DNA of 64,000 nucleotides from Mucispirillum schaedleri ASF457 (lineage in GTDB: Bacteria > Chrysiogenota > Deferribacteres > Deferribacterales > Mucispirillaceae): positions 989,001 to 1,053,000 of the forward strand of contig NZ_CP097562.1 in assembly GCF_000487995.2 (NCBI RefSeq), read 5' to 3'. Under the pieces are notes generated by a model. That model saw only the letters and a program-made list of their open reading frames with translations. It was not told where the DNA came from and searched no databases. Shown in pieces: positions 21,799-63,104 of this stretch (positions are counted from its first letter, which is position 1; the number at the start of each line of letters is the position of its first letter). Made by a program: the position numbers and the translations under genes.

Positions 21799-24700
21799 TT
21801 ATTTATTTTTTATCCATACCATAGCAGACTGCTGTCCGTTACCATGGTCTACCCTTGATGGTCTTTGAGCCATAAGTGTATTTGCACACCCTCCATCATC
21901 TATGCCGTCAACTGGGTCTGGGTCATACCAGCAGCCTTGATGAAGTCCAATAAAGCCTCTTACTACCCTGTCAGTAACTCTTGCAATAACACGAACATCA
22001 CCTATCGGGTTGCCTATTGTGATTAATTGACCATCAGCAATACCTTCTGCTGCAGCATCCTGATTATTCATCCACACTTCACTCCAAGAAGCGACATTTT
22101 CTTTGCCAGCTATTGGCTGACCGTTTGAAATTGTCTGATTAAGACGGGCAAGGTTTGCTGTTTCACCAGCTTTTACTTCCTGAACTGCACCAATATTGCC
22201 ATACTCATTCCAGTCATTACCAGAATATAAAGCTCCGCCTTTAATTCTGTGAGTTAATTCTCTTAAATATGGATTTTCAGACTGAGATGAGTGTGCTCTA
22301 TATCTATCATGAGTAGTTGTTAAGAGATAACCTTTGCTCATATCTAATGTATTTTTACCATTCATTACACCATAAGCTTCATTAAAATAGTCTTCATAAG
22401 CATAGTATAATGGAATAGGATAAACTAATGGGTCATTTTCAAAGTCTTTGTTAGCTTGACCAGTAGCCTGTCCCTTACTTGCAAGGTATCCGTGCCATTG
22501 TTCAAAACGGTGTTCATAGCAGTAAACAAGTGAATCTGAATATACATGAAACCTGCCAGATGCTTTTGGACATAAATCAATAGTTGATTGCAGCCATTGT
22601 GCACCATAGCCTGTTTTTTCGTTTGTCTTAATACCTGATATAAATGCTTGAGACATATTACCAGCAAGATAATTATCAAGATTTTCCCTTAAAGTAGTTT
22701 TTGTAACAGTAACTGGTGCATATTCACTTGCTGTTTTTGGAGCATAAGGGTTATTAATGAAATCTTCCCATGTTTTGCCATGGTATAAACTTTGCGGATT
22801 TACACTTGCTTTACCAAATGCATCTTTTACTAAATCTTCAATTTGCTGATTAGGAATGCCGCCTGTAAATTTAGTCGCAAGCTCATTACCAACACCTTTT
22901 AATTTACCTACTGCTTTTAATAAATCATTTGTAAAGTTCCATTGAGATTTAGCCTGACCGGGAGCATTACTTACAACTGGGATATATAAAGAGTTACCAA
23001 GAGATATGCTGATAATATCTTCCTGTTCCCAAGTTGTAGCAGCAGGTAATACATAGTCTGACCATCTTGGAGACGGAGATAAAAAGTTATCAAATGATAC
23101 CATGCAGAATGTATCTGGATTATCTGGCTGTGTAGAACCTAAATCAAGAGCTTCAAACATTTCTCTTGCATCATTTGGGTCCATATGCTGGTTCATTGGA
23201 ATATTACCACCAGAGTTTAATATAAACCGAAACCCTGCTTTTAATGGTTTGCCATCTTTACCTGTTTTCCATTTATAATATCCATCAGCATTTGTTTTTA
23301 TTGTGCCATCTGCTTCTCTATCCCATGTATAAAGAGCTTTTGCACCACCATCTTCATAGTAAACACCTGACTCAGAATTTCTATAATCCCAGTCAGGTAT
23401 ATATTTTGCAGAATAACCATTTGCAGTTAACTGCTCTTTAAATGCAAATTTTATTGCATTATGCCACTGAGTGCAGGAAATAACTGGTGTTGCAGGGCTG
23501 CTTGGAACATCTGGACGGCTTATACTTACATTTAATGTGCCTGCTGCATTACTTCTTGCACCACCAAAAGCTCTGCCTAAACCGTCACCAGTCTGCCCCC
23601 ATGATTTAGAAAGAATAAGAAGTGCCTGCAAAGCAAACATATTAATCACACCATTTGCCTGCTTTTGCTGAGCACCGCACCATTCGCTGTATATTGGATG
23701 ATTATCTTGGTTAAAATAAAGCTCTGCTAAATCTTTAATAGCCTGTTCTGGTATACCAGTAATATCAGAAGCCCATTTTGTATTTTTAGGTTTTAAAAAA
23801 TCTTTTTTAGTTTTGTATTTTGTAGTATTACCTGCTGATGAAATATAAGAGCAAATAGAGCCATTTCTTTTAGCCTGTTTAGATGCAAACTGGTCAGCTA
23901 CATAGTTGCCACTGTAAGCTGCTTTTGTAAGTCTCGCATCACTGCCCATAATATAAGCTGAAAGTGAACGACCTGCAGGAACTGCATTTACTTTTACAAT
24001 AGGCTCTTGATAAACATACAATGATGTGTCCGCTTTATTTTTCCAACGATATGGATATGTGTTTCTACCTATTGTAAATGGTCCTGTTTCTTTGTCCCAT
24101 TTATCAATTTCAGACTTTGCAGTTGTTTGGTCTATATATATTTTTCCAGCATTTTCATTTATATCCGTTCCAACAGCTGTATCTGTTCCCTTAGTATAAT
24201 TAGTTTCTATCCAATATTCTGGAGAATCAAAGAAACCATATACCATTGTATCAATATAATCTACATCTAATAATCCGCCTGTTTTTTTGTTACCATCAGC
24301 ATCAAATGTAGTATCTATTGCATGATAAAGCATACCAAGAATTAATGCAGTATCAGTGTATGGTTTCATTTGATACCATGTATCTGCAAGAGTTACACCA
24401 GTGTCAACAAATTCTGGTCCTATGAACCATACTTTACCGCCACGCTGCTTCATCATTTCAACAGAACGGATTTCAGAATATGCTGAGCTGTTTACTGTTG
24501 ATAATACATTGGAACCCCATAAAACAACATTTTTAACTGCACTTGCAACAGTATTTGCATTTGCACTGCTGCCATTATAACCAGTATAGCCAGTGCCAAA
24601 GAATGACCTTTGATGAAAAGAATAATCATGAGTATATTTTGCATAACCGCCCATTAAACTTGCCGCAGCTGATGTGCTTATACCTGTCCATATACCAGTG

Positions 24701-25307
24701 TAGCCGCCACCCTGCCACGAAGAAGAATATGCACCACAGGCATATATTGAGTGAAATGATTCTGGACCGTATTTATCTGTAATTGCTTTATGTTTTCTTG
24801 CGATTTCATCTAATGCCTGTTCCCAAGAAATGCGAATAAAGCCAGATAAATCACCGCGTTTTTTAGTTTGTTTTAATGGATATTTTAATCTTCCGGGATG
24901 ATATAAACGGAATTTATAAGAACGACATTTTGAACACGCTCTTGAAGCTGAACAGTTAGGGTTTTCACTGTCAATTACTTGACCAGTTGTGTCTATAATG
25001 CTTTCATCTGTAACAAAACGCTTAATTACACCATTTTTTACATGAGCTTTTATAAGACATTTAGCACCGCAGTTATGACCGCTTGTGCCGTAACGAATAT
25101 AATCGGGAGTTAAATCATTTTCATCATTGGAACTTGTGCCAGCCCCCCCCCGTATATAATATCTGAACTGCCATCTTTAGAGCAGCCATACATGGCAGCC
25201 ATTGCACCAAGTGCTGATATGCCTTTTAAAAAGGAACGCCTTGATACTGAGCTTTCTTCTAATGATTTTAAAACATTAGTTTCTTTTCCCATCTTCTTTG
25301 CCTCCAA
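21799..25307 (-). CDS. dmsA: DmsA-like Tat-exported molybdopterin oxidoreductase, frameshifted at a G9 tract (phase-OFF)
   Basis: The catalytic subunit of a DMSO-reductase-family enzyme. The first 52 codons encode a Tat leader (SRRSFLKG). A G9 tract (25143-25151) follows and shifts translation to a stop at 25110. With 7 or 10 G the frame would join the 1,113 codons downstream, giving about 1,169 residues. No stop exists in that frame between the tract and the ATG at 24654. Numbering the ON product: [4Fe-4S] ligands C80, C84 and C125, with Ser76 where E. coli DmsA has its first cysteine; Mo ligand Ser230 in GGYAKYTHDYS; C-terminal WYDPDPVDGIDDGGCANTL. It is about 350 residues longer than E. 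coli DmsA because of internal insertions. DMSO, TMAO or another oxyanion could be the substrate. Confidence 0.85.
25143..25151 (-). repeat. G9 homopolymer tract (coding strand) disrupting dmsA
   Basis: Nine C on the plus strand. Upstream the Tat frame reads TAC-GGG...; downstream the enzyme frame reads GCT-GGC-ACA. The two frames join only if the tract has 7 or 10 (3n+1) G. The assembled length of nine therefore gives an OFF gene. Confidence 0.85.
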
Positions 25308-25826
25308 GTTTTTTGTATATTTAATATACTTAAAAATAAATCTTTATCAACTCATAAATTACACTTTTTCTGCAAATTTAACAAATATAATACTTTTGTT
25401 AATATAAATACAGTTTTTTTTATTTAGTATTATCAATAATTAAGACAATTTTAATCTTTTTATCAAATAAAAATTATATGCAGATATAGGCATTGAATAT
25501 CTAGCTGCATTAAATAATTACTGATTATTTTTTTAAAAAAAATAACATAAAGTTATGTTTCTCTATGCAAGCTTTATTATAATTTCTTTTTTAATATGTA
25601 ATATAAATGAAAAATATAAACAAGTTATAAAATAAGTTTTCAATAAACTTTCATACACAATGTCTATTCTGAGCCACTGGCGAAGAATCTAGAATAATAA
25701 TTATTTATATTTGCAAAAAGTTTTGCAATACTAATATTTTATATATTTCACCTTACGGCTTAATATGACATAATTGTAATGCTTTTATAAATATTATAGA
25801 ATTTTAAATTATTTGATACAAAAAAA
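25308..25826. other. Intergenic region between rplC and the dms operon
   Basis: No gene. The promoter of the dms-like operon should lie here but I see no clear consensus. A clean head hairpin (TTCTGAGCC-act-GGCGAAGAA) is at about 25663-25692 and a worn copy near 25740-25775. Confidence 0.5.
25663..25692 (+). repeat. Short tandem-GA hairpin repeat
   Basis: GTCTATTCTGAGCC, loop ACT, GGCGAAGAATCT. TTCT pairs AGAA, GCC pairs GGC, and the GA/GA step between them is preserved. Confidence 0.65.
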
Positions 25827-33374: not shown

Positions 33375-33857
33375 TTAATCTCTTAAATCTATTTTATGTT
33401 CCCATGTATCTTCATATTCTTTTCCACAACACTCATTTTTGTATTTACCTTTCCATTCTTCAACTCGCACAGGAACATATGTTTCAATTCTATTTCCATG
33501 TTTATTTTTTATTGTTCTTTTTTCTTGCTTATTATATACCCTAATACATTCTTCACTCAATTTTGTTGTTTTAAAATCTTTTTCATAACAGTAAGGACAG
33601 TATCTCCTTATTTCATCAGCATCAGGAACTTTTTTGACAAAATAAATAAATGCTATAATTAATGGAATAAATATAATACTATTTAGCACTAACAAAGGTA
33701 AATCCTGCTGATCCCCATTTAACACGGCAAATAAGAAAAGCAACTCAATCAACCCAAAAAAAATTGATGGAATAAAAAACAATGCTGATATAATACTATA
33801 CTTCTTATCCATTTTTTTTAATTGTTCATATTTCTTTTTATTTTCTAAATTTTCCAT
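33375..33857 (-). CDS. Two-helix membrane protein with cysteine-rich tail
   Basis: Unknown function. The start is placed at 33857 because AAGGAG lies 6 nt upstream and the earlier in-frame ATG at 33890 lacks a site. The 160-residue product has a basic, coiled N-terminus (MENLENKKKYEQLKKMDKKY), two hydrophobic helices and then a hydrophilic tail with CPYC and ECCG, a possible zinc site. It is separate from the adjacent nuclease/DUF262 pair. Confidence 0.55.
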   Translation of the reverse strand: MENLENKKKYEQLKKMDKKYSIISALFFIPSIFFGLIELLFLFAVLNGDQQDLPLLVLNSIIFIPLIIAFIYFVKKVPDADEIRRYCPYCYEKDFKTTKLSEECIRVYNKQEKRTIKNKHGNRIETYVPVRVEEWKGKYKNECCGKEYEDTWEHKIDLRD

Positions 33858-34108
33858 AAAATTCTCCTTGTTTAACAATAAATTGTACAATACTATTCTT
33901 TATAACAGTGTGTGTATTTCTCTTGCACACCACAAAATGTTCTTTAAAATTATTACAAACTTTGATAAGGTGTAAATCTTTACACTGAATAATAATTATT
34001 GGAATTTAAGAAGAATTATCAAATAAAGATGAATGATACAATAAGATTGTGTTATTTATAAAGGGATATAGGCAAAAAGGGTGAGTTAGAAAATCAGAAC
34101 TGCGTCTG

Positions 34109-34117
34109 CCCCCCCCC
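34109..34117. repeat. Orphan C9 homopolymer tract
   Basis: Nine C in an intergenic region, about 250 bp upstream of the membrane-protein gene ending at 33375. No -35/-10 pair flanks it and no long frame crosses it. Confidence 0.55.
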
Positions 34118-61272: not shown

Positions 61273-63104
61273 ATGTTGAAAGTAAAACCGTTTTTATTCA
61301 TTCTTTTTTTAACTGTTTTTGCTGCTCTTTTATCAACGGGCTGCAGCAATGATTCTTCTAGTTCTGGGGGGGGATATATAACCCAGATGGAGAAGAAGAA
61401 AAAGTAACACCTATTGATTTAGCAGGAAACCCATTCAGTCTTTTAGGTGTTTATGATGTTATTTTATACGGCATTAATGGAGAGCCAGTTAATACTCCAG
61501 CTATGAAAAGCGAACTTCGTGTTGGTTTGAATTTAAATAAAGCAGCAGGTGGTATGGAAGCACCAGAAGTTTTAATGTCCCTTGATTTTGAAGGCACACA
61601 AATCTTGTTTGATAAATATGTTATTGATTTATCAGGTTTAGAAAGTGCAGGTGGTGATTTAAATAAATTTATAGCTGATACATTTGATAATTTAGGTGCA
61701 GAATTAATTGAAGGCAGTGAATATGGTCTTTATTTCACATTAGACCCTGCTAAAAACCCACAATACAAACCAATATTAGATAACTCAATTGTTCAAGATG
61801 GTCAATATCTAAAATTAGAATTAAGAAAAACAAATGATATAGAAGTTGATGGCGGTTTAGATGTAGAACCAGCTGGTCCTGATGCCCCTGTAACCATTCC
61901 TGTAGAAAATATCGTTATAGATACTGCATCCCACTCATATTTCAGAGGCTCTAATATCACTATTGATTTTTCTATTACTCCATCAAATACTTCTGATACA
62001 GAAGTTGATTGGGCTACAAATTCAAATGGAAGTGGCACCATTACTTGTGTAAATGGCGAAGGAGAGCTTGTTTTATCAAAGGTAATGGTAGATGACACAG
62101 TTACATTGACTATTAAAAATGGTAAGACTGCACAGTTTCAAATAACACTTACTGATAGTATAGAAAATATAAGCTTTATCAAATCTTCATATCAATTAAC
62201 ACAAAATGAAACTCAAACTATTGCTATTGATAACTATGATACAATTAAAAATCAAATATCTAGTTTACAATACACAAGTAGTGATGCTAATATTGCTAGT
62301 GTTGATAATAATGGCAGTGTAAAAGCTTTAAAAAATGGTGTTGTAACTATCACAGCTACTGCTACATCAAACGGGAAAAATTTATCTGCAAGTTATGAAT
62401 TAGATGTATTAGGCTTAGTTGATTTTTCTAGCAATGATTCTTTTATTGCATCAGCTCAAGGAACTTATAATATAACATTCTTTGGAACTAATCCAGGTAA
62501 AGCAGGTAGTTTTATGGGAGAACAAACAGAAGTGCCTGTTACAACTGACTGTGAGTTATATAAGGAATTATTTAATTCTACTAAGTGTGAAGGTGGTGGT
62601 TTTGTAAAAAATATTATTGTTAATAAAGATAAATTTGTAGGTAAGGCTACAATTACAATCCAAGATGATGGTTCAGCAGTTATACATACAAAAATATTAA
62701 TGACTGCAGAATCTATGGCAAAGAATTCACCTGATGACCAATATCAATATTCTGTATATAGAACTACAAATCGTGGTGATTCTAATAACAGTAAAAACAC
62801 TGTTCAAGGAATTACTGGCAGACATTTGACTGCAAATGGTACTTGGGCAACTTCTACATTTGATGTTAGACAATATAAAAATAATTTATCAAAAGAAATT
62901 ATTTTATATTCTCATTTAATTGGAAAAGAAATTAGTATTCCAATAGCTGGAAATAAAACAGTTAACCCTATTACTTATGTTATTATGAGTAAGGAAAGTT
63001 CTCAACCAGAGAAAATGGGATATAGTGATATTTCTGTCGCACCATTTAATAAAGTTACAGGAATTAATCCTACAGATTTAGGTAAGGATGCACCAAATTA
63101 TTAA
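61273..63104 (+). CDS. Ig-like (Big_2) surface lipoprotein, frameshifted at a G8 tract (phase-OFF)
   Basis: An ATG at 61273 with AGGAGGA starts a lipoprotein signal (lipobox STG-C) and an Asn/Ser linker SNDSSSS. A G8 tract (61366-61373) then shifts the frame to a stop after 44 codons. With nine G it would continue IYNPDGEEEKVTPIDL into the 533-codon frame that begins at 61503, giving about 610 residues. A bacterial Ig-like Big_2 domain is visible (LTQNETQTIAI...SSDANIASVDNNGSVKALKNGVVTITATA). A C-terminal GTYNITFF domain is homologous to the lipoprotein at 36639, and an N-terminal GVYDVILYG segment may be a further copy. It is probably cell-surface, with a possible role in adhesion. Confidence 0.8.
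61366..61373 (+). repeat. G8 homopolymer tract disrupting the lipoprotein frame
   Basis: Eight G between codon TCT and ATA-TAT-AAC. Nine (3n) would join the frames; eight gives OFF. Confidence 0.85.

Follow-up and report, generated by a model that had tools for sequence, protein, structure and literature searches.

Most discussion of phase variation has centred on surface antigens, glycans, restriction systems and adhesins. In the genome of Mucispirillum schaedleri ASF457, a run of nine Gs lies between a Tat leader and the body of a DmsA-like respiratory molybdoenzyme gene, and the reading frame is interrupted there. The question raised by this locus, contained in a 64,000-nucleotide stretch of DNA analysed as a whole (the window), is whether the run works as a reversible switch or marks a gene that is simply broken.

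Translation of the leader begins at an ATG (25292-25290) preceded by a GGAGG-type ribosome-binding site and, at nine Gs, gives MGKETNVLKSLEESSVSRRSFLKGISALGAMAAMYGCSKDGSSDIIY-GGG-LAQVPMMKMI. The body frame (-1) stays open for 1,117 codons between the tract and its stop codon at 21799 and meets the leader frame at 3n+1 Gs. The ORF called from the ATG at 24654 comprises 951 amino acids and would be without the leader and the N-terminal Cys-rich region. A change in the length of the G9 at this junction alters the frame, as is expected of a contingency locus. The initial annotation had placed the G9 directly after the Tat leader, with early termination at nine Gs and frames that join only at 7 or 10; all three points were confirmed, with nine Gs counted on the coding strand and the leader ending after 60 residues at the TAA at 25112-25110. 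The features of the locus are collected in Table 1.

Table 1. Features of the switch region and operon in the window (positions are those of the window)
Feature	Position	Strand	Remarks
G9 tract, proposed slippage switch at the leader/body junction	25143..25151	-	C9 on + strand
Leader ORF at nine Gs, 60 residues	25110..25292	-	Tat SRRSFLKG and lipobox-like YGC; ends TAA
Promoter and leader segment common to the paralogous operons	25152..25755	-	Similarity falls off sharply at the tract
DmsA-like molybdoenzyme body, 1,113 codons	21799..25142	-	Frame needing 7 or 10 Gs
DmsB-like 4Fe-4S subunit, 205 aa	21166..21783	-	
TorD/DmsD-like assembly chaperone, 225 aa	20439..21116	-	
Probable outer-membrane protein (OMP), 513 aa	18886..20427	-	Signal peptide, C-terminal Trp
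c-type cytochrome, 166 aa	18385..18885	-	Five CxxCH motifs

The body matches the Molybdopterin and Molydop_binding domains, and the best named model is DmsA/YnfE (TIGR02166). Molybdopterin oxidoreductase and molydop-binding domains, an FeS partner, a dedicated chaperone and a Tat signal are all present, as in DmsA-type systems; the score against TIGR02166 is 287 bits, far under the curated cut-off of 777.7, and the enzyme is therefore classed only as DmsA-like. The OMP has no Pfam family match, PDB sequence searches with the OMP and with the cytochrome returned chance matches only, and an AlphaFold model of the OMP built from two sequences had a pLDDT of 30. An OMP-like protein and a pentaheme cytochrome are thus encoded, with no family or PDB match linking them to DmsF/DmsE. 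Because these two proteins share an operon with an enzyme whose leader carries a lipobox-like YGC, the enzyme may face the cell exterior, and the combination suggests that it could work at the outer membrane, like Shewanella DmsEFAB (PMC11302344). The contrast with surface antigens that had been drawn for this gene would then be smaller than assumed.

Four operons of the same layout are found in the genome, a single 2.35-Mb contig of 98.99% completeness: at C1:608, in the window (C1:1014143), at C1:1070453 and at C1:2270982. In each of them a near-identical leader runs directly into a G9. The operon at 2270982 is in frame (ON), and the other three miss the frame by one nucleotide (OFF). Within this genome the leader DNA is found at these four operons only, and the remaining five molybdopterin genes have no tract of at least 8 within kilobases. 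The idea of a phase-variable respiratory molybdoenzyme in its OFF state, as initially annotated, thus holds for the design, the state and the Tat leader, and was too narrow in treating as single a gene that is one of four. Three of the four enzyme operons are OFF, as against 3 of about 22 other intragenic tracts (Fisher p = 0.03), a difference that is suggestive given the small numbers and a comparison picked after the fact.

G tracts are far more frequent in this genome than chance would give, as is also expected where contingency loci occur. Runs of G or C of at least 8 number 49 (six of 8, 33 of 9, eight of 10 and two of 11). The 43 runs of at least 9 compare with about 1.5 expected, a figure scaled up from the 0.04 per 64-kb window obtained with dinucleotide shuffles; the window itself has three G9 runs against that 0.04. 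Run counts in the window fall from 358 through 76 and 7 to 0 at lengths 3-6 and then rise to 3 at length 9. About 28 tracts are intragenic, about 20 of them in frame, six out of frame and two close to the gene end. Tract-bearing genes encode glycosyltransferases, MBOAT acyltransferases, sulfatase-family enzymes, lipoproteins, HsdS, histidine kinases, an MCP and an M66/TagA peptidase, so that the tracts sit mostly in typical contingency genes. Many are also present in other Mucispirillum species and the sister genus, and few in most other Deferribacterota.

Several other tracts merit description. In the window, an intergenic C9/G9 (34109-34117) lies about 220 bp upstream of a small ORF (33375-33890, - strand) and is possibly a promoter-spacing tract. 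A G9 at 2193-2201 (coding on the - strand) directly precedes an open frame of 356 codons that has no Pfam match, and is a switch in the start region or else a tract in the promoter/leader. A G8 at 61366-61373 falls just past a lipoprotein signal (FLTVFAALLSTGCSNDSSSS); the 579 open codons that follow encode a Big_2 domain and are not in frame with the signal, making this another probable OFF contingency gene. Elsewhere in the genome, a G9 at C1:1558496 lies in frame within an 894-residue M66 peptidase/TagA/ricin-B-lectin protein, a probable mucin-directed protease under phase variation. A G8 at C1:680945 interrupts a type I HsdS gene, leaving halves of about 200 codons each in different frames, which suggests a phase-variable restriction-modification system, and one sulfatase-family gene has two separate in-frame G9 tracts (C1:2207165 and C1:2208095). 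The region C1:617-585471, a quarter of the genome, contains zero G/C runs of at least 8, with 48 in the rest of the genome. In a genome of another family in the same order (G037, family f4), G9 words number 417 when overlaps are counted, and some runs reach 20 Gs or more; this is either an extreme richness in poly-G or an artefact of sequencing.

Further information comes from comparing this genome with five other Mucispirillum genomes and one sister-genus genome, each species being represented by one assembly. Homologous leaders occur 38 times in the seven genomes, always with 8-10 Gs. Thirteen instances are ON, 20 need one more G and 5 one fewer, and all 38 bodies are open as far as a stop or contig end; these counts are descriptive, since the instances share ancestry and every species contributes a single assembly. 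Lengths cluster at nine Gs (29 of the 38) more tightly than expected under free drift. The window gene is OFF with nine Gs, and so are its orthologues from three Mucispirillum genomes (G002, G003 and G004) and from the sister genus; the orthologue in a further genome (G009) has ten and is ON, and another orthologue group has tract lengths of 9, 10, 10 and 8. Intact homologues without a tract are found in another genus (g2) and at a few Mucispirillum loci. Since the tract is shared by orthologues in other Mucispirillum species and the sister genus, it is ancient, and the break is not recent as had been proposed; since its length varies among orthologues, its state changes. Variation in length and ON/OFF state between species, over a coding body that stays intact and selected, is again what a contingency locus would display. 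Taken together, the promoter and Tat/lipobox leader with its poly-G probably form a shared stochastic ON/OFF switch for the Mucispirillum DmsA-type respiratory operons (probability roughly 0.8). Comparison between genomes gives good support for poly-G phase variation across the multi-operon respiratory repertoire, and from it we infer switching within a strain.

Recoding at the G run, by RNA polymerase slippage or -1 ribosomal frameshifting, would leave the nine-G genes down-tuned rather than OFF. Long G runs are slippery in both transcription and translation, the same +1-nt shift would restore the frame in 20 of the 25 out-of-frame cases, and the instances in one Mucispirillum genome (G002) are uniformly of this nine-G, +1 type (7/7). 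A programmed shift should, however, hold to one offset, whereas 13 of the homologous copies are in frame as they stand, five would require a shift in the other direction, and length differs between orthologues, the window gene's counterpart in G009 being in frame at 10. With in-frame and both out-of-frame classes present, a universal programmed frameshift is unlikely.

Another reading is that the gene is simply intact, its tract having 10 Gs that were miscounted in the assembly. Homopolymers are error-prone in assembly, and one extra G would bring three of the four operons into frame. Yet this assembly also has about 20 in-frame tracts elsewhere, the majority with exactly nine Gs, so there is no systematic loss of one G, and independent metagenome assemblies likewise give nine for the orthologues. 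Nine Gs is a plausible exact length, and an assembly error is very improbable.

Selection on the OFF genes bears on whether they are still used. Comparisons between the OFF Mucispirillum orthologues give dN/dS values of 0.13-0.15 over the whole body (at dS 0.12-0.46) and 0.07-0.09 over the first 200 residues; such constraint argues that the genes are not fixed OFF. The downstream codons, described at the outset as intact, are so in all 1,113 positions and, as these values indicate, are under purifying selection. A fixed pseudogene or decaying paralogue, broken at a G run by chance, would fit the out-of-frame state in this assembly and is otherwise hardly tenable, being contradicted by the open codons, by open orthologues in five other genomes and mainly by the purifying selection.

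For the switch reading, the following sequence of events is proposed. Slipped-strand mispairing at replication, the most likely cause, would lengthen or shorten the tract by roughly one G at a time. At 10 or 7 Gs, leader and body would be made as one exported molybdoenzyme; at nine, the sequence predicts a 60-residue peptide and no enzyme, perhaps with polar loss of dmsB-torD-OMP-cytochrome. Independent switching at the four loci would allow up to 16 expression states, so that the reductase expressed by each cell would be set by chance and then sorted by the available electron acceptors. MutS and MutL are full-length and intact in this genome, which rules out mismatch-repair loss as a cause of tract variation. 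C. jejuni is without mismatch repair, and the slippage rate in Mucispirillum may therefore be lower than in Campylobacter, or differ from it.

The four operons differ markedly in conservation along their length. The promoter/leader segment of the window is about 77-88% identical to those at C1:608 and 2270982 in aligned blocks over about 600 bp, and 97-99% identical to that at 1070453 over the last 150 bp. Overall, the paralogous promoter/leader DNA is mostly 75-100% identical in the 150 bases before the tract and about 50-60% beyond it, and the enzyme bodies share 36-50% amino acid identity. Across the four loci the 2-kb OMP-cytochrome block shows about 99% identity (OMP 97-99% and cytochrome 98-100% at the amino acid level). 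OMP copies are 98-99.8% identical within G003 and within G004, 91-93% between the two, and about 83-85% identical to those of M. schaedleri. The OMP block thus groups by genome, consistent with concerted evolution for which gene conversion would be the simplest route. Leaders do not simply group so and look shuffled; the closest leader often belongs to another locus, and leaders therefore seem to move between loci. Most copies in G002 are contigs of 4.6-5.2 kb with the leader at the start and an end past the chaperone region, one ending within the OMP start, as would be expected if the leader and OMP ends are repeats. A fifth OMP homologue (C1:1547779-1549257) has an internal G9 of its own.

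Recombination may thus exchange or homogenise the leader and OMP-cytochrome ends among loci, with the bodies between them remaining divergent. A tentative extension, for which the odds are a little short of even, is a modular repertoire in which swappable bodies with different substrates, each independently phase-varied, sit between a common recombining leader and an OMP/cytochrome module, leaving a clone pre-diversified in the electron acceptors that it can use at the cell surface. A conserved, multi-copy switch on terminal respiratory reductases would in itself mean bet-hedging of energy metabolism by a nitrate-reducing gut commensal that blooms during inflammation. 'Pseudogenes' of this family in the reference genome may reflect only the tract lengths sampled, and the phenotypes of single laboratory clones may likewise depend on them. 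A DMSO-reductase-like system, which may or may not be one of the four operons, is among the few genes of M. schaedleri ASF 457 up-regulated during inflammation (PMC5285517). Among the papers retrieved in a literature search, none describes phase variation in Mucispirillum. A P. acnes paper on a homopolymer and DMSO reductase was rejected as a precedent, as it concerns a deletion and not a tract.

Among known systems, E. coli DmsABC and YnfEFGH supply the models that the catalytic and FeS subunits match best (TIGR02166, TIGR02951); the Mucispirillum proteins differ in scoring under the curated cut-offs, in an operon without a DmsC-type anchor, in a longer body (1,113 codons) and in a lipobox-like residue past the Tat motif. 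In Shewanella, DmsE has ten haems. The Shewanella dmsEFABGH extracellular DMSO/iodate reductase (PMC11302344) likewise combines DmsA, DmsB, a multihaem cytochrome, an outer-membrane-associated protein and accessory genes in one operon. Here, by contrast, the order is A-B-chaperone-OMP-cytochrome, the haem motifs are five, the OMP is without a detectable family match, and several paralogues per genome carry a poly-G switch.

The tracts themselves resemble the poly-G/C loci of Campylobacter and Helicobacter (PhasomeIt, PMC6321876; H. bizzozeronii, PMC3234257), with intragenic G8-11 tracts of mode 9, tens of tracts per low-GC genome, mixed ON/OFF states and many surface and glycan genes. Campylobacter poly-G tracts are 53% G9 and 26% G10 (PMC6321876), and indel rates of 1e-4 to 1.6e-3 per division were measured for C. 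jejuni tracts (PMC8355987). The passages retrieved from these two papers name no respiratory reductase among the phase-variable genes, although menA is listed for C. fetus. Mucispirillum differs from these systems in belonging to another phylum, Deferribacterota, in its intact mismatch repair genes, and in targets that include a paralogous respiratory molybdoenzyme family. Poly-G switching itself is known; what appears new is its probable action, through a shared leader, on a family of respiratory enzymes in the Deferribacterota.
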